Below, one piece after another: positions 1-5,199 of a DNA stretch of 5,217 nucleotides. Every line of letters begins with the position of its first letter. Position 1 is the first letter of the stretch. The notes beneath the pieces were generated by a model, which worked only from the letters and a program-made list of their open reading frames with translations, was not told the DNA's origin and did no database searches. This stretch comes from an uncultured Bacteroidales bacterium. GTDB lineage: Bacteria; Bacteroidota; Bacteroidia; Bacteroidales; UBA932. The DNA lies in the NCBI GenBank assembly GCA_946405645.1, contig CAMJHW010000109.1, positions 1 through 5,217 of the forward strand, written 5' to 3'. The translations under genes and the position numbers were made by a program.

Positions 1-246
1 CCCGGCAGGGTCAGGACCAACATCTCGCTGCGCGCCCTTGACAAGGGCGGAAAGCAGCACGGGCAGATGGACCCCGGCCAGGCCGGGGGACTGGACGCGG
101 ACAAAGCTGCGAAGCAGATAGTCCGCGCCATCGCCCACGGCCGCCGCGAGGTCCTCGTCGGCAGGGGCGAACTGGTCATGGTATATATCAAGAGATTCTT
201 CCCCGGGCTGTGCGCGCGCCTCTCGCAGCGCATCAAGCCCGTCTAA
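1..246 (+). CDS. SDR family oxidoreductase, C-terminal part (5' end outside window)
   Basis: Frame 1 is open from the left edge to a TAA at 244-246 and gives 81 residues. They begin with PGRVRTNISL, which matches the 'PG-x-x-x-T' loop that follows the catalytic YxxxK in short-chain dehydrogenases. Next comes a segment typical of the DHRS7-like branch: DPGQAGGLDADKAAKQIVRA, then a 'GRREVLVG' strand, then an aromatic and basic C-terminus (VYIKRFFPGLCARL). The Rossmann nucleotide-binding part and the catalytic Ser/Tyr/Lys are not in the window, so substrate and cofactor cannot be judged. Members of this family are NAD(P)-dependent oxidoreductases, and the hydrophobic end of this branch often suggests membrane association. 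The gene converges on the feo operon, and its stop overlaps the stop of the 53-aa Cys-rich gene. No functional link to feo is visible. Confidence 0.85.
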   Translation, partial: PGRVRTNISLRALDKGGKQHGQMDPGQAGGLDADKAAKQIVRAIAHGRREVLVGRGELVMVYIKRFFPGLCARLSQRIKPV

Positions 247-404
247 TCACACTTGCCGCCTTTTCCGTCGCAGTACGGGCAGCCTTCCTTCTTGGAGCAG
301 TCGCCGCAGGAGCAGCTGCTTCCTCCTTTGCGCGTCGCAGTATACAGCGCAAAGGCCACAAGGGCGATTACCACGGCCAGGACGATTATAGTGGCTGCAT
401 TCAT
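243..404 (-). CDS. FeoB-associated Cys-rich membrane protein (53 aa)
   Basis: This small protein begins MNAATIIVLAVVIALVAFAL, which is one N-terminal membrane span (about residues 4-22). A short basic turn (YTATRKGG) follows, then a Cys-rich tail with six cysteines: C31, C33, C36, C42, C45 and C52 (CSCGDC, CPYC, KC). This is the layout of the 'FeoB-associated' Cys-rich family that follows feoB in many anaerobes. The ATG at 402-404 overlaps the feoAB stop as ATGA, so translation is probably coupled. The frame stays open upstream to 542, but that extension is antisense-like shadow inside feoAB; the family length and the overlap favour the 53-aa start. The stop (TAG, 243-245) overlaps the SDR stop on the other strand. 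The likely role is a small membrane partner of FeoB. Metal or redox binding by the Cys tail is plausible but not demonstrated here. Confidence 0.88.
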   Translation of the reverse strand: MNAATIIVLAVVIALVAFALYTATRKGGSSCSCGDCSKKEGCPYCDGKGGKCD

Positions 405-2749
405 GCGAAAATCAGATAAGCGGCCAGAGCGAAAATCCATGCGATGACGCACTGGAACAAGATGACCAGAAACGCCCATTTGGAGCCGAGCTCGCGGCGT
501 ATGGACGCGATGGCGGCGACGCAGGGAGTATAGAGAAGGCAAAAGACGAGGAGGGGAACCGCCGTGGCCGCAGTCAGGGCAGCGGTCACGCCAAGGACCT
601 CCATCGTGGAGACCACGCTCTCCTTTGCAAGGAAGCCGGTGATGAGGGCGGTGACGATACGCCAGTCGCCGAGCCCGAGCGGGGCGAAGAGCGGAGCGAT
701 CAGACCCGCCAGCCAGGCGAGGATGCTATGGCTGCCGTCTTCGACGAAATTGAGCTTGAAGTCGAAGGATTGGAGAAGCCAGATGACGATCGTAGCCACG
801 AAAATGACGGTGAATGCGCGCTGGATAAAGTCCTTGGTCTTGTCCCAAAGCAAATGCCAGACGTTACGCGCCCTCGGGATACGGTACACGGGCAACTCCA
901 TGACGAAGGGAGATGAATCCTTCTGTCCATGGAACAGTTTGGAGACCAATGCGGTCAATATGCCCACTACTATTCCAAGGAGATAAAGCGATACCATTAC
1001 CACACCTGCCCTCCCAGGGAAGAAAGCACTCGCCAGGAAGCCATAGATGGCTATCTTGGCGGAGCAGCTCATGAACGGGATGAGCAGGATGGTAAGGCGC
1101 CTGTCATGCGAGGACGGAAGGGTGCGGGTGGCCATTACTCCGGGAACGGAGCATCCGAAACCTATGAGCATCGGCACGATACTCCGGCCGGAGAGGCCGA
1201 GGCGGCGCAGGAGTTTGTCGGAGACAAACGCAATGCGCGCCATGTAGCCGCTGTCCTCAAGCATCGACAGGAAAAAAAACAGCACTATGATAATGGGGAC
1301 GAAGCTAAGCACGGAGCCTACTCCCCCGAATATCCCGTCTACGACCAGCGAACGAACGGGTTCGCTGACGTCCCAGCGGATGAATGCGGCGTCCACTGCC
1401 GCTCCGAGACCCTCTATTCCTGCCGCAAGCAAATCCTGCAGCCAGAGGCCGATGACATCGAACGTCAGCCAGAAGATCAAGGCAATGATGACGATAAAGG
1501 CGGGAATTGCCGTCCATTTGCCGGTCAGGATACGGTCTATCCTGAGACTGCGACGGTATTCCTTGCTTTCCTGTGGCTTGGATACGGTCTGCGAACAGAG
1601 ACGGCTGATGAACGAGAAGCGCATGTCGGCCATGGCCGCATGGCGGTCCAGGCCGCGCTCCTCTTCCATCTGGGTGATGATATGCTCCACCATCTCTTCC
1701 TCGTTGCGCTCGAGGCCGAGCTGCGCGGTGACGGCCGCGTCGCCGACGACAAGTCGGCTGGCGGCGAAACGCGCCGGCAGGCCTACGCGCTGCGCATGGT
1801 CCTCGACCAGATGCATCAGGCTGTGGAGACAGCGGTGCACAGCACCGCCATGGTCATCCTTGCTGCAGAAGTCCTGGCGTCCGGGCTTCTCCTGATACTT
1901 GGCGATGTGGATGGCGTGCTCGACAAGTTCGTTAACGCCCTCTCCGCTGGCAGCGGAAATCGGAACGACCGGGATGCCCAGCAAGCGCTCCATCTCGTTG
2001 ACGCGGACGGATCCGCCGTTGCCCCTGAGCTCATCCATCATATTGAGTGCGAGCACCATGGGAACATCCAGTTCCATCAGCTGCATCGTCAGATAGAGGT
2101 TGCGTTCGATATTGTTGGCATCTACAATATTGATAATCGCCTTGGGTTTTTCATTGAGGATGAAATCCCTGGACACAAGCTCTTCGGCGGTATAAGTCGA
2201 AAGCGAATAGATGCCCGGGAGATCGGTCACACGCGTGTCGGGATGTCCTTTGATTACACCGTCCTTGCGGCTGACCGTCACGCCCGGGAAATTGCCCACG
2301 TGCTGGTTGGAACCGGTCAGTTGATTGAAGAGCGTAGTCTTGCCGCAGTTCTGCTGGCCCGCAAGGGCAAATGTAAGGATTTCTCCCTTTGGAAGGGGAT
2401 GCTCGTCTTCCTTGGAATGGAAACGTCCGCCTTCGCCGAGCCCCGGGTGGGCATTATGCTCATGAAGGGAAAGATTGTATCCAAAGTCCTCGTCGATCGG
2501 GCCGAGATGCTCCGGCTCACGGCTGTACTCCTTGTCGACATCGATGTTGAGAGCTTCCGAGACCCTGAGCGTCAAGGCATAGCCATGAATCTTTATCTCC
2601 ATCGGGTCGCCCATGGGAGCCATCTTTACCAGACGCACCTCGGCACCCGGAATGATGCCCATATCCAGGAAGTGCTGGCGAAGGGCTCCTTCGCCTCCAA
2701 CATTTCTGACCACGGCCGATTCGCCGACCTTCAAATCCTTCAATGTCAT
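401..2749 (-). CDS. feoB: Fused ferrous iron transporter FeoA-FeoB
   Basis: This 782-aa inner-membrane Fe(II) importer has FeoA fused to its N-terminus. Residues 1-73 are the FeoA SH3-like domain (MTLKDLKVGE, LDMGIIPG, MEIKIHGYALTLR). Residues 74-123 are a His- and acid-rich linker. The G-protein domain follows: G1 GQQNCGKT (131-138), G2 Thr158 in GNFPGVTV, G3 DLPG (176-179), G4 NMMD (236-239) and G5 SAASG (265-269). A helical region runs to about 400. The membrane part starts near 412 and has about eight or more hydrophobic segments. It carries the two Gate motifs with GCSVPG (532-537) and SCSAKI (561-566), plus GFLAKE (705-710) and TPCVAA (741-746). All G motifs are intact and length is normal for a Bacteroidota FeoAB fusion, so it looks functional. 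The start at 2747-2749 leads directly into FeoA and lies about 20 bases downstream of a TAnnTTTG element. The 3' end overlaps the Cys-rich partner by four bases. Confidence 0.97.
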   Translation of the reverse strand: MTLKDLKVGESAVVRNVGGEGALRQHFLDMGIIPGAEVRLVKMAPMGDPMEIKIHGYALTLRVSEALNIDVDKEYSREPEHLGPIDEDFGYNLSLHEHNAHPGLGEGGRFHSKEDEHPLPKGEILTFALAGQQNCGKTTLFNQLTGSNQHVGNFPGVTVSRKDGVIKGHPDTRVTDLPGIYSLSTYTAEELVSRDFILNEKPKAIINIVDANNIERNLYLTMQLMELDVPMVLALNMMDELRGNGGSVRVNEMERLLGIPVVPISAASGEGVNELVEHAIHIAKYQEKPGRQDFCSKDDHGGAVHRCLHSLMHLVEDHAQRVGLPARFAASRLVVGDAAVTAQLGLERNEEEMVEHIITQMEEERGLDRHAAMADMRFSFISRLCSQTVSKPQESKEYRRSLRIDRILTGKWTAIPAFIVIIALIFWLTFDVIGLWLQDLLAAGIEGLGAAVDAAFIRWDVSEPVRSLVVDGIFGGVGSVLSFVPIIIVLFFFLSMLEDSGYMARIAFVSDKLLRRLGLSGRSIVPMLIGFGCSVPGVMATRTLPSSHDRRLTILLIPFMSCSAKIAIYGFLASAFFPGRAGVVMVSLYLLGIVVGILTALVSKLFHGQKDSSPFVMELPVYRIPRARNVWHLLWDKTKDFIQRAFTVIFVATIVIWLLQSFDFKLNFVEDGSHSILAWLAGLIAPLFAPLGLGDWRIVTALITGFLAKESVVSTMEVLGVTAALTAATAVPLLVFCLLYTPCVAAIASIRRELGSKWAFLVILFQCVIAWIFALAAYLIFA

Positions 2750-2763
2750 ATCGCTTGCTTTGG

Positions 2764-2773
2764 ATTTGCAAAT
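2764..2773. promoter_or_regulatory. Perfect 10-bp palindrome at the feoAB promoter (possible operator)
   Basis: ATTTGCAAAT is a perfect palindrome. It shares five bases with the predicted -7 element of feoAB (2769-2776) and lies 15-24 bases upstream of the feoAB start codon. A protein bound here would block or reshape RNA polymerase binding. Palindromes of this size occur by chance in AT-rich DNA, so it is a candidate only. Confidence 0.3.
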
Positions 2774-2776
2774 TTA
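2769..2776 (-). promoter_or_regulatory. Predicted -7 promoter element of feoAB
   Basis: Read on the - strand, this is TAAATTTG, an exact match to the Bacteroidota -7 consensus TAnnTTTG. It lies about 20 bases before the feoAB ATG, which predicts a short leader of roughly 15 nt. I see no clear TTTG -33 element at the usual distance (around 2795-2801), so the promoter may be weak or activator-dependent. Confidence 0.5.
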
Positions 2777-2836
2777 CGGCATTTTTCACTATGCGGCATC
2801 CCTATTTATGGGGATTTTTATATGCTTCAAGGTTCA

Positions 2837-2856
2837 ATAGCATTTTTAAATGCTAT
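2837..2856. promoter_or_regulatory. 20-bp inverted repeat at the regulator promoter (candidate operator)
   Basis: The arms ATAGCATTT (2837-2845) and AAATGCTAT (2848-2856) are perfect 9-bp reverse complements with a 2-bp centre. The right arm overlaps the predicted -7 element of the regulator gene (2854-2861), and the palindrome occupies the -7/-33 spacer. This is a classic place for a dimeric repressor or autoregulator. GCATTTTT recurs at 2779-2786, 61 bp to the left, near the feoAB promoter. The adjacent LuxR-type regulator is the obvious candidate ligand; this is inference. Confidence 0.5.
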
Positions 2857-2861
2857 CTTTG
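2854..2861 (+). promoter_or_regulatory. Predicted -7 promoter element of the regulator-queH operon
   Basis: TATCTTTG matches the Bacteroidota TAnnTTTG -7 consensus and ends 23 bases before the ATG at 2885, so transcription would start about 15-20 bases upstream of translation. A convincing -33 TTTG is not seen at the expected distance. The element also supports the 2885 start over the in-frame ATG at 2822, which would lie upstream of the transcript start. Confidence 0.5.
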
Positions 2862-2884
2862 CTTTGATAGACAATCTGTTTACA

Positions 2885-3814
2885 ATGACGACGGAGATCA
2901 ATCCCAACATCAGGCTGTCGGAGCTTGTGGACCGCAATTTCCAGATCCTTGGGCTCTTGGAGCGCCTGGGCATCAGCGGCAATTTCGGAGACAGGACCGT
3001 GGAGGACGTCTGCACTTCGCACGGGATAGACCCTTCGACGTTCTTGCTTCTCTATCATTTCTATATCGACAGGCAGTTCAAACCTACGGAGAAAATGCTT
3101 AGGGACGCAAGCATAGAGGATCTGGCAGATTATCTTCACCGCTCGCACGAGTACTATCTCAACGTTGCGCTCAAATCCCTGTCCAATCTGCTCGAGAGTC
3201 TGTTGGCGCCTTGCAGCGAGGCGCAGAAGAAGGTATTCCATAAGTTCTACGACGATTACGAGGAAGAGCTTAACAGGCATTTCGGTTTCGAGGAAGAGAA
3301 CGTCATGCCCTATGTCAGGATACTGGTTGAGGGAAGGGGGAGGAAGAAGGCTTCACTAGAGTCCTTCACTGATGACCACAACAGCATCAACGAGAAGATC
3401 TCTGACCTCAAGAGTCTGGTGATGAATTCGTTGCCAGAAGGTTGCGATTCTTCGGTCAGGATGCAGACACTGTATCTGATATGTTCGCTCGAGTACGACC
3501 TGGACCGCCATACGGCGGTCGAGGAGGGAGCGCTCGAGCCCATGTTGGAGATGCTCGAGAACAACGGTAAATACGGTAAGCGCAAGGCGGCCGAAGAGGA
3601 GCGGGAAGCCTTGTCAGAAAGGGAGAAAGAGATTCTCGTGGGTGTGGCCAAGGGGTTGCTCAACAAGGAGATAGCCGACCAGAACAACATCTCCGTATAT
3701 ACCGTCATCTCCCACCGCAAGAACATCACACGCAAGACCGGCATCAAGTCCGTGGCCGGCCTGACCGTATATGCGCTGATGAACGGACTGATAGATATGA
3801 GTTCCATAGAATGA
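2885..3814 (+). CDS. DUF542-like/hemerythrin-like domain transcriptional regulator with LuxR-type HTH
   Basis: This 309-aa protein has three parts. Residues about 9-55 (IRLSELVDRN ... VEDVCTSHGID) resemble the DUF542/ScdA-N domain of RIC/YtfE iron-sulfur repair proteins, but the usual Cys-Cys pair is replaced (LGISGNFGD, 28-36). Residues about 80-225 are hemerythrin-like. Candidate di-iron ligands H88, H132, E136, H165, H209 and E213 have nearly the same spacing as the ligands I recall for E. coli YtfE (H84, H129, E133, H160, H204, E208). Residues about 243-303 are a LuxR/GerE HTH (LSEREKEILVGVAKGLLNKE ... TVISHRKNI). No membrane span or receiver domain is seen. The likely role is a cytoplasmic transcription factor sensing Fe, O2, NO or redox state through a di-iron centre. 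It is divergent from feoAB and overlaps queH by ATGA. The ATG at 2885 was chosen because it starts just before the DUF542-like part and follows a -7 element; another in-frame ATG is at 2822. Confidence 0.87.
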   Translation: MTTEINPNIRLSELVDRNFQILGLLERLGISGNFGDRTVEDVCTSHGIDPSTFLLLYHFYIDRQFKPTEKMLRDASIEDLADYLHRSHEYYLNVALKSLSNLLESLLAPCSEAQKKVFHKFYDDYEEELNRHFGFEEENVMPYVRILVEGRGRKKASLESFTDDHNSINEKISDLKSLVMNSLPEGCDSSVRMQTLYLICSLEYDLDRHTAVEEGALEPMLEMLENNGKYGKRKAAEEEREALSEREKEILVGVAKGLLNKEIADQNNISVYTVISHRKNITRKTGIKSVAGLTVYALMNGLIDMSSIE

Positions 3815-4452
3815 GTGCCGGAGAAACTGCCGACCGGTCCAAGGTGTCCGGAGTGAAACATAAGCTCGTGCTGGAGGTTCCGGGCGGCGCACGGCGTGTG
3901 CTGCTGCACACCTGCTGCGCGCCGTGCTCCTCTGCCATTATCGAAATCATGCTCCAGCAAGGCATCACTCCGACAATATTCTATTCCAACTCCAATATCT
4001 TCCCCCTGGAGGAGTACCTGCACCGCAAGGACGAGTGCACGCGCTACGCGCAGTCGCTCGGGCTCGAAATCGTCGATGACGATTACGAGCACGCGGACTG
4101 GCGCAGCTGCGCGGCGCTGGGGCTCGAGAACGAGCCCGAGCGCGGCGCGCGCTGCCTCGCCTGCTTCAAGTACCGCCTTCTCCGTGCCGCACGCTACGCG
4201 TCACATCACGGATACACAGTCCTGACCACGACGTTGGCGTCCTCCCGCTGGAAAGACCTGGCCCAGGTCGATGCCGCCGGCCGCTGGGCCTGCGACACCG
4301 TCAACTCCGCCCTCCCTCCCGTCACCGTCACCTGGTGGGGCCAGAACTGGCGCAAAGGCGGACTACAGGACCGCCGGAACCAGATCATCCGAGAGATGAA
4401 CTTCTACAACCAGCAATACTGCGGCTGCGAGTATTCCCTCCGGAACAAATAA
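3811..4452 (+). CDS. queH: Epoxyqueuosine reductase QueH
   Basis: This 213-aa protein matches the QueH (DUF208) family, which reduces epoxyqueuosine to queuosine at the wobble position of GUN-anticodon tRNAs and is non-homologous to QueG. Visible signatures are HTCCAPCSS (33-41), FYSNSNIFPLEEYLHRK (57-73, substrate-side loop), CLACFKYRL (115-123) and YCGCEYSL (203-210). The metal and redox cysteines C35, C36, C39, C115, C118, C204 and C206 are all present. TmQueH is known to carry an Fe-S cluster and a nearby iron, so the enzyme depends on iron. The ATG at 3811 overlaps the regulator stop (ATGA), which indicates co-transcription and coupled translation. About 28 residues precede the first strand (RRVLLHTCC), more than the few usual in the family, so the true start could be one of the in-frame GTGs slightly downstream. 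The stop is followed by a terminator hairpin. Confidence 0.93.
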   Translation: MSAGETADRSKVSGVKHKLVLEVPGGARRVLLHTCCAPCSSAIIEIMLQQGITPTIFYSNSNIFPLEEYLHRKDECTRYAQSLGLEIVDDDYEHADWRSCAALGLENEPERGARCLACFKYRLLRAARYASHHGYTVLTTTLASSRWKDLAQVDAAGRWACDTVNSALPPVTVTWWGQNWRKGGLQDRRNQIIREMNFYNQQYCGCEYSLRNK

Positions 4453-4527: not shown

Positions 4528-4704
4528 TTAAACCTTGTCCCTGAGAAGGAAATAGTACACGATGAAACCGATCCAGCTGAAAGCCAGGACGGCGATCGAA
4601 AGAAGGATCTTACCGATGATGCCGAGTTTGGGTTTCTTGAAGATGTCGAGGACGCACCAGATGGCGACTACGATACCGAGGATGTAAACAATCTTAGCTA
4701 ACAT
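4528..4704 (-). CDS. Small PLDc_N-like membrane protein (58 aa)
   Basis: The - strand ATG at 4702-4704 gives a protein that begins MLAKIVYILGIVVAIWCVLD and ends YYFLLRDKV. It has two hydrophobic spans (about residues 4-18 and 31-53) joined by a short basic turn, DIFKKPKLG (20-28). The pattern 'W-x-x-x-D-I-F-K-K-P ... IG-x-I-V-Y-Y-F' resembles the phospholipase D N-terminal (PLDc_N) membrane domain found in cardiolipin synthases and in free-standing small proteins. No HKD catalytic motif is present or could fit, so it is not itself a phospholipase. Its function is unknown. It converges with queH across the shared terminator and has no same-strand neighbour within the window. Confidence 0.8.
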   Translation of the reverse strand: MLAKIVYILGIVVAIWCVLDIFKKPKLGIIGKILLSIAVLAFSWIGFIVYYFLLRDKV

Positions 4705-4740: not shown

Positions 4741-5110
4741 AATTCTTCCCCAATTATCCACCCCCGCCCCCTCTTTTTTTCTTTCCGCCTGATTACTCTA
4801 TCCTCGGTTTTCTTCCCCTCTCACTTCCCACTCGCCCCAATCCCTCATTCCCCTCCACATTCCCATTACAGTCTATTCTCGCCTGATCTTCTGAATCCGA
4901 TTTCAGGAACAAAACCACCCTTTTTGTGCTTTTTTCTCCTCACTATCCCCTATACTTCCCTCACCTTCTCCATTTCTCCACTTCTCGATATTTTCATCAT
5001 TCCCACCTTTCCTCCTCGTCCCTTTTACTTCCGCTTCTTCCTATCCATCTTCCCCTCCTACCCTGTTCTGAACCAGACACTGACCACTCCCCAACTATTC
5101 CTGATCCTAA
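4741..5110. other. Noncoding pyrimidine-rich tract (+ strand)
   Basis: A hand count over 4741-5100 gives about 80 purines in 360 bases, so about 78% C or T on the + strand. Apart from 4871-4920 the figure is closer to 85%. Runs such as CCCCCGCCCCCTCTTTTTTT (4771-4790) are typical. No credible gene is seen on either strand. The only longer frame (GTG at 4926 to 5144) codes for a low-complexity Ser/Leu/Pro/His string that simply reflects the composition, and it runs into the hairpin repeats. CCTGAT occurs three times (4788, 4882 and 5100), but no longer repeat was found. Possible readings are a long untranslated leader for a gene beyond the right edge, or structural DNA. Confidence 0.6.
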
Positions 5111-5111
5111 C

Positions 5112-5148
5112 TGCTTTAGACGGTCCAAAAGATGGACCGTCTAAGGCA
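5112..5148. repeat. 37-nt hairpin repeat, copy 1
   Basis: The arms TAGACGGTCC (5117-5126) and GGACCGTCTA (5134-5143) are perfect reverse complements around a 7-nt loop AAAAGAT. The stem extends outward by a T-A pair, a T-G position and TGC/GCA, giving about 15 paired positions as RNA. Copy 2 has identical inner arms and a different loop. No T-run directly follows on the + strand, so it is not a standard terminator in that direction. Confidence 0.85.
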
Positions 5149-5162
5149 AAAACGCCCCAAAA

Positions 5163-5199
5163 TGCTATAGACGGTCCAGGAATTGGACCGTCTACAGCA
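5163..5199. repeat. 37-nt hairpin repeat, copy 2
   Basis: The inner arms are the same as in copy 1: TAGACGGTCC (5168-5177) and GGACCGTCTA (5185-5194), with loop AGGAATT. An A-C mismatch follows, then outer arms TGCT/AGCA. It begins 51 nt after copy 1 begins, and the 14-nt spacer is AAAACGCCCCAAAA. The remaining 18 bases to the window edge (5200-5217) show nothing recognisable. Confidence 0.85.

Follow-up and report, generated by a model that had tools for sequence, protein, structure and literature searches.

A hemerythrin-LuxR fusion protein divergent from feoAB in an uncultured Bacteroidales bacterium, and a candidate operator shared with feoAB promoters

Gene layout of the window and domains of the fused protein

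The window, the whole 5,217-nucleotide stretch of DNA analysed, carries a regulator gene on the plus strand at 2885..3814 (ATG at 2885, stop at 3812-3814), with a product of 309 aa supported by the ORF listing, Pfam, NCBIfam, the AF2 model and structural matches. On the minus strand lie one gene for a 782-aa FeoA-FeoB fusion, a ferrous iron importer (401..2749; ORF, Pfam and NCBIfam), and one for a 53-aa FeoB-associated Cys-rich membrane protein (243..404; PF12669, 27.7 bits against a cut-off of 27), whose start overlaps the feoAB stop. The original prediction described the regulator as divergent from feoAB, and this arrangement is confirmed, feoAB being here the single fusion gene on the minus strand.

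Downstream of the regulator, queH, encoding an epoxyqueuosine reductase (3811..4452, plus strand; PF02677, 187.5 bits), begins with an overlap of the regulator's stop. A QueH match lies directly 3' of the regulator in six of seven close relatives, and the contig of L003 ends at that point. Further observations in the window include a hydrophobic 58-aa ORF on the minus strand (4528-4704), perhaps a small membrane protein, and, 3' of the genes (5106-5199), a 43-nt direct repeat present twice, each copy being itself an inverted repeat (TAGACGGTCCA...TGGACCGTCTA). A 961-aa ORF at 929-3814 is an open frame running antisense through feoAB, and an Rfam scan of the window gave no matches at gathering cut-offs.

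From the N-terminus, the regulator comprises a putative ScdA/DUF542-like segment, a RIC/hemerythrin four-helix domain, a short joint and a LuxR/NarL-type helix-turn-helix (HTH). The helical domain (3113..3559, plus strand; residues 77-225), delimited by AF2 helices, the Pfam stretch 82-184 and conservation, carries H88, H132, E136, H165, H209 and E213, and the GerE/LuxR-type HTH occupies 3608..3775 (plus strand; residues 242-297; Pfam). Hemerythrin PF01814 scores 45.0 bits (cut-off 25.3) and GerE PF00196 53.6 bits (cut-off 23.5); these are the only Pfam domains above cut-off in the protein, with no Fur domain, and neither Pfam nor the joint length indicates a receiver domain. In the AF2 model (mean pLDDT 87), residues 53-225 find their closest structural matches in YtfE and S. 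aureus ScdA/RIC, and residues 238-303 in LuxR-type DNA-binding domains. Profile and structural matches thus agree with the predicted fusion of a RIC/YtfE-like domain to a LuxR HTH, and the domain make-up of the window protein is virtually certain.

Of the three domains initially proposed, hemerythrin and GerE were recovered by profile search, while DUF542/ScdA_N received no Pfam call in the window protein. DUF542/ScdA_N is matched by 3 of 40 aligned relatives (DUF1858 by 4 of 40), and positions 10-225 of a family profile, among them the N-terminal part, align with S. aureus ScdA. RIC TIGR03652 (NCBIfam) matches residues 34-215 with 47.5 bits, far below its equivalog cut-off of 204.7. The six proposed candidate ligands are well conserved: H88, H132, E136, H209 and E213 are invariant in the 68 RIC or fused rows of the alignment, and H165 is kept in 66 of them. 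Cys43 is likewise kept in 68 of 68, and in the ungapped alignment H88 falls one column away from the YtfE histidine.

RIC-LuxR pairs and fusions in Bacteroidales

A profile of 40 fused proteins gives some match in 194 of 198 Bacteroidales genomes. Among 8000 scored proteins, 5529 match at E <= 0.001, some perhaps through one domain alone, with both domains present in 119 of 120 among the matches listed. Neighbourhoods were fetched for the first 60 further genomes in the profile-search listing, and a LuxR-type partner accompanies the RIC gene in 59 of these 60 loci, fused in 7 and as a neighbouring gene in 52; at the remaining locus the contig ends at the RIC gene. Both genes share a strand in each of the 52 pairs, with RIC preceding LuxR in 50. 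In the other two, L063 and L076, the LuxR gene stands ahead of the RIC gene, the opposite of the usual order.

The separate LuxR partner resembles full-length NarL-type response regulators in both profile and fold. Its acceptor column holds Asn in 41 of 52 unfused partners and Asp in 6 of 52, and the Pfam receiver model is matched at 0.01 by 8 of 23 aligned partners. The unfused partner is thus mostly a pseudo-receiver protein, one with a degenerate receiver.

The tree, built on 67 rows, places the window with seven fused loci (100/97) and joins this group to two split, feo-linked loci (100/99), the other seven fused rows falling on the far side. Monophyly of all fused rows is rejected (p-AU 6.1e-08), and more than one fusion is shown. 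In every one of the 15 fused rows, 8-27 residues separate the hemerythrin domain from the HTH, so that none has room for a receiver. Direct fusion of the hemerythrin protein to the HTH on more than one occasion, always without the receiver, suggests that the sensor, or input, of the HTH is the hemerythrin protein. The one-component design first suggested is corrected in that the window gene represents, in fused form, a two-gene unit that is common in the group and consists of RIC and a CdhR-type LuxR protein.

Linkage to feoAB varies across the family. FeoAB adjoins the regulator in all seven close relatives: the two genes diverge in L001, L002, L003 and L007, whereas in L004-L006 FeoAB stands upstream in the same orientation. 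Of the 53 split loci fetched, 10 have it at a distance of up to about 8 kb, and none of 7 distant fused loci does; these counts are minima because many contigs end early. Homologues with no feo linkage had been named in advance as evidence against control of feoAB, and the low linkage in split and distant fused loci makes such homologues frequent, the expected association standing for the close relatives.

Related operons have been described. According to parts of PMC10434189, PG1236-PG1237 and BT0519-BT0520 are hemerythrin plus cdhR operons, induction of the pair in low iron amounts to a factor of about 7 in P. gingivalis and of 16 to 20 in B. thetaiotaomicron, and a fused form occurs in a third species (PIN17_RS10465, Prevotella intermedia), so that the fusion and the iron role are already in print. 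The same parts call the mode of CdhR regulation unclear and state that CdhR 'has yet to be shown to bind iron'; control of feo by the hemerythrin-CdhR pair and receiver loss were not found in them, and the words 'motif' and 'promoter' are absent from the main text. Passages of PMC10101095 describe CdhR as an activator of hmu genes and cdhR as lower under microaerophilic conditions, and a passage of a review presents CdhR as a negative regulator of Mfa1 (PMC7482874). The terms GerE, LuxR and DNA-binding do not occur in PMC4919030. No locus of the P. gingivalis type, with an RluA neighbour, was found by gene order in the genomes searched.

Candidate operator and promoter geometry

Between the two divergent promoters of the window lies a 7-2-7 palindrome, ATCCCTATTTATGGGGAT (2798..2815, strand not assigned), considered a candidate operator. 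Sequence comparison of the five divergent intergenic regions yields the common block ATCCCYAT-TT-ATRGGGAT, corresponding to window 2798-2815, and a random-start motif search in a set of 78 promoters, drawn from RIC, fused and feo genes, yields ATmCCYAT-WW-ATRGGkAT. The score reached by 1% of 497 control promoters, taken from other genes of the same loci, is passed by 28 of the 78, an in-sample count. Within the window, 2798-2815 is the sole match at <=2 mismatches, with 0.03 expected. NarL sites have the 7-2-7 form, and a palindrome of this kind suits a NarL-type HTH.

Two other leads were rejected. The perfect palindrome at 2837-2856 (ATAGCATTT-TT-AAATGCTAT, with 9-nt arms and overlapping the regulator's -7 box) has the look of an operator but is not conserved in L001, L002, L003 or L007, and a coupling of a recognition-helix residue to operator base 3 proved inconsistent.

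A matrix was trained on 63 RIC or fused promoters, with the window and its four divergent relatives held out. The test drew on 27 of 30 FeoAB loci, on a further 40 RIC genomes and on 20 of the 27 genomes listed as lacking RIC. Where RIC is present, this regulator-trained matrix matches 25 of 63 feoAB promoters (28 of 66 when three feo promoters of the motif search, L118-L120, are added), against 1 of 24 where there is no RIC match. The classes were set by E-value (present at about 1e-31 or better, absent at worse than 1e-20), and a RIC match in a genome does not prove the presence of the LuxR partner. In genomes outside the training set it matches 13 of 35 feoAB promoters, and among control promoters 5 of 497. 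The Fisher p of 0.001 for 25/63 versus 1/24 overstates the case because the genomes are related.

Exact sites give a complementary view, with 59 found in 45 of the 198 genomes. The 137 genomes with RIC hold 51 (reversed pattern, 7) and the 60 without RIC hold 6 (reversed pattern, 4); G065, a genome of doubtful RIC status with 2 exact sites, is left out of this comparison. Twelve of the 59 lie 49-120 nt ahead of a feoAB or RIC match, a count that is not independent because the pattern was derived partly from such promoters, and the L224 site also precedes a FeoAB gene. Of the 47 sites away from feoAB or RIC matches, 42 were looked at, and 8 of 40 further exact sites fetched fall inside genes. 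Eight genomes, chosen for carrying a site at RIC or feo, were searched individually: the close-clade genomes G001, G002 and G003 have one exact site each, in the feoAB-regulator intergenic region, and the other five have five additional sites, three ahead of feoAB at another locus and two elsewhere, one preceding a TonB receptor and the other a 434-aa protein that has no Pfam match.

The occurrence of the operator at feoAB promoters unlinked to the regulator supports a regulatory link between the family and feoAB, and these sites keep the idea of feoAB control alive. The control of ferrous iron uptake proposed at the outset is to this extent supported; where RIC is present, 38 of 63 feoAB promoters show no scoring site.

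The palindrome could instead be the site of another regulator, with the RIC-LuxR protein being one target and acting elsewhere or still repairing Fe-S clusters. Such an explanation would account for the porins and the CDF exporter among the targets and for the feoAB promoter of G144, a genome without a RIC match that has both the site and the 22-nt spacing described below. It is nevertheless very improbable, as only RIC genomes show an excess of exact sites (51 versus 7; without RIC, 6 versus 4), the 7-2-7 form fits a NarL-type HTH, and in three close-clade genomes the sole exact site adjoins the regulator gene. Assignment of the operator to the RIC-CdhR regulator family is considered highly likely.

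Promoter geometry bears on the direction of regulation. The -7 consensus is TAnnTTTG and is accompanied by a -33 consensus. The candidate -7 box of feoAB, TAAATTTG (2769..2776, minus strand), stands 21 nt from the operator, and that of the regulator gene, TATCTTTG (2854..2861, plus strand), 38 nt from it, the latter spacing being common to all five divergent loci. Scoring sites occur at 29 feo promoters, 28 from RIC genomes and 1 from a genome without RIC. A TAnnTTTG box follows the site in 21 of the 29, starting exactly 22 nt past the palindrome in 18 of these 21, at 21 nt in one and further away in two. By eye, TG directly follows the palindrome in 18 of the 29, producing a -33-like TTG that touches the site. 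Near-invariant spacing is more typical of activators contacting polymerase, and the fixed site-to-box distance suggests contact with RNA polymerase and hence activation; that the regulator activates is judged fairly probable.

Repression of feoAB through the same operator, the iron-loaded form covering the -33 region, is quite unlikely by comparison with activation. A repressor could also act where the site touches the -33 region, and the description of CdhR as a negative regulator of Mfa1 in part of PMC7482874 means that the family may also repress; the 22-nt spacing, near-invariant in 18 of 21, and the account of CdhR as an hmu activator in part of PMC10101095 argue against it.

Exact sites also precede, among others, genes for TonB receptors and OprB, for a CDF exporter and DUF1858+DUF2249 proteins, and for a small family of His-rich proteins; with this range of predicted targets, regulation may extend further than ferrous iron. 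The His-rich proteins, four related sequences 117-121 aa long that all follow an exact site (L230 410-769, L234 1887-2252, L237 570-935 and L251 1879-2232), are a possible metal-handling family; the one scanned had no Pfam match. Five further related proteins lie behind exact sites (L117 3068-4372, L222 2392-3732, L239 1027-2235, L244 1030-2301 and L253 205-804), and the two scanned gave no Pfam match. Related proteins at L250 2330-3289 and L252 2374-3312 follow exact sites that have a -7 box 22 nt away, the scanned L250 protein being a CDF cation exporter. At L229 the exact site precedes a gene with an AhpC/peroxiredoxin-like start (by eye), and at L240 and L241 genes of the DUF1858+DUF2249 type, one of the two having been scanned.

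Proposed regulation of feoAB and comparison with known systems

In the proposed mechanism, the hemerythrin/RIC domain would serve as the input, probably with a di-iron site, and a dimer of the NarL-type HTH would bind the 7-2-7 palindrome at 2798-2815. The operator touches the -33 region of feoAB, its spacing to the -7 box being fixed, which makes a class-II-type activator of feoAB most likely, and the same operator, 38 nt from the regulator's own -7 box, suggests probable autoregulation. The related pairs are induced in low iron; if the window protein behaves alike, it would be active when poor in metal and switched off when its site is loaded with iron. The sequences themselves show the domains, the conserved ligands, the pairing, more than one fusion, the conserved operator, its geometry and its co-occurrence with the RIC gene; we infer metal binding, occupancy of 2798-2815 by the window protein, activation, autoregulation and iron as the signal.

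YtfE/ScdA repair proteins act in nitrosative and oxidative stress, and they are the nearest solved relatives of the window protein. The same protein and operator might accordingly respond to NO or to O2/redox at the di-iron site, coupling stress to iron import, an explanation that would also suit the lower cdhR under microaerophilic conditions (in part of PMC10101095) and the exact sites ahead of the AhpC/peroxiredoxin-like gene of L229 and the DUF1858+DUF2249-type genes of L240 and L241. This signal is unlikely in view of the recurrence of the operator at feoAB and the induction of the pair by iron depletion in two species, as given in part of PMC10434189. Iron is rather likely to be the signal.

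Taken as a whole, the window gene as a regulator, probably an activator, of feoAB under low iron, within the full fused RIC-CdhR model, is held with modest confidence, slightly on the favourable side of even. The broader proposal is tentative and falls a little short of even: a Bacteroidales-wide factor family in which a di-iron hemerythrin protein would pass metal status directly to an HTH, via a pseudo-receiver partner or by repeated fusion, and turn on ferrous-iron import from a NarL-like operator, unlike Fur and as a bacterial counterpart of FBXL5. With the operator supplying the DNA target and feoAB the target gene, iron sensing in a major gut and oral bacterial group becomes testable with one protein and one promoter.

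Direct literature queries for a hemerythrin plus LuxR regulator in Bacteroides, with or without feoB, returned no match. The operator, feoAB control by the RIC-CdhR family, receiver loss and promoter geometry were not found in the literature searched, subscription papers lying mostly outside its scope. The pairing in 59 of 60 loci, the repeated receiver-less fusion and the 22-nt geometry were likewise not met with in that literature.

Several known systems can be set beside the window protein, in which a hemerythrin/RIC domain with a fused LuxR-type HTH, the hallmark of the RIC-CdhR family, was found. PG1236-PG1237, BT0519-BT0520 and PIN17_RS10465 likewise bring together a hemerythrin domain and a LuxR-type regulator, in neighbouring genes or in one fused protein, and are tied to iron, the likeness being drawn from their descriptions. 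RIC/YtfE/ScdA Fe-S repair proteins share its fold and ligand pattern, whereas the window protein possesses a C-terminal HTH and reaches 47.5 of the 204.7 bits of the equivalog cut-off. NarL/FixJ/LuxR-type response regulators share the GerE HTH and the 7-2-7 palindromic site, but the window protein has a hemerythrin domain instead of a receiver. FBXL5, the hemerythrin iron sensor of animals, is a ubiquitin ligase subunit; use of the hemerythrin fold for reading iron status is the likeness proposed, whereas the window protein is a predicted transcription factor. Control of iron import, probable for the window protein, is shared with Fur and DtxR, from which it differs in its unrelated domains and as a probable activator with a putative di-iron site.
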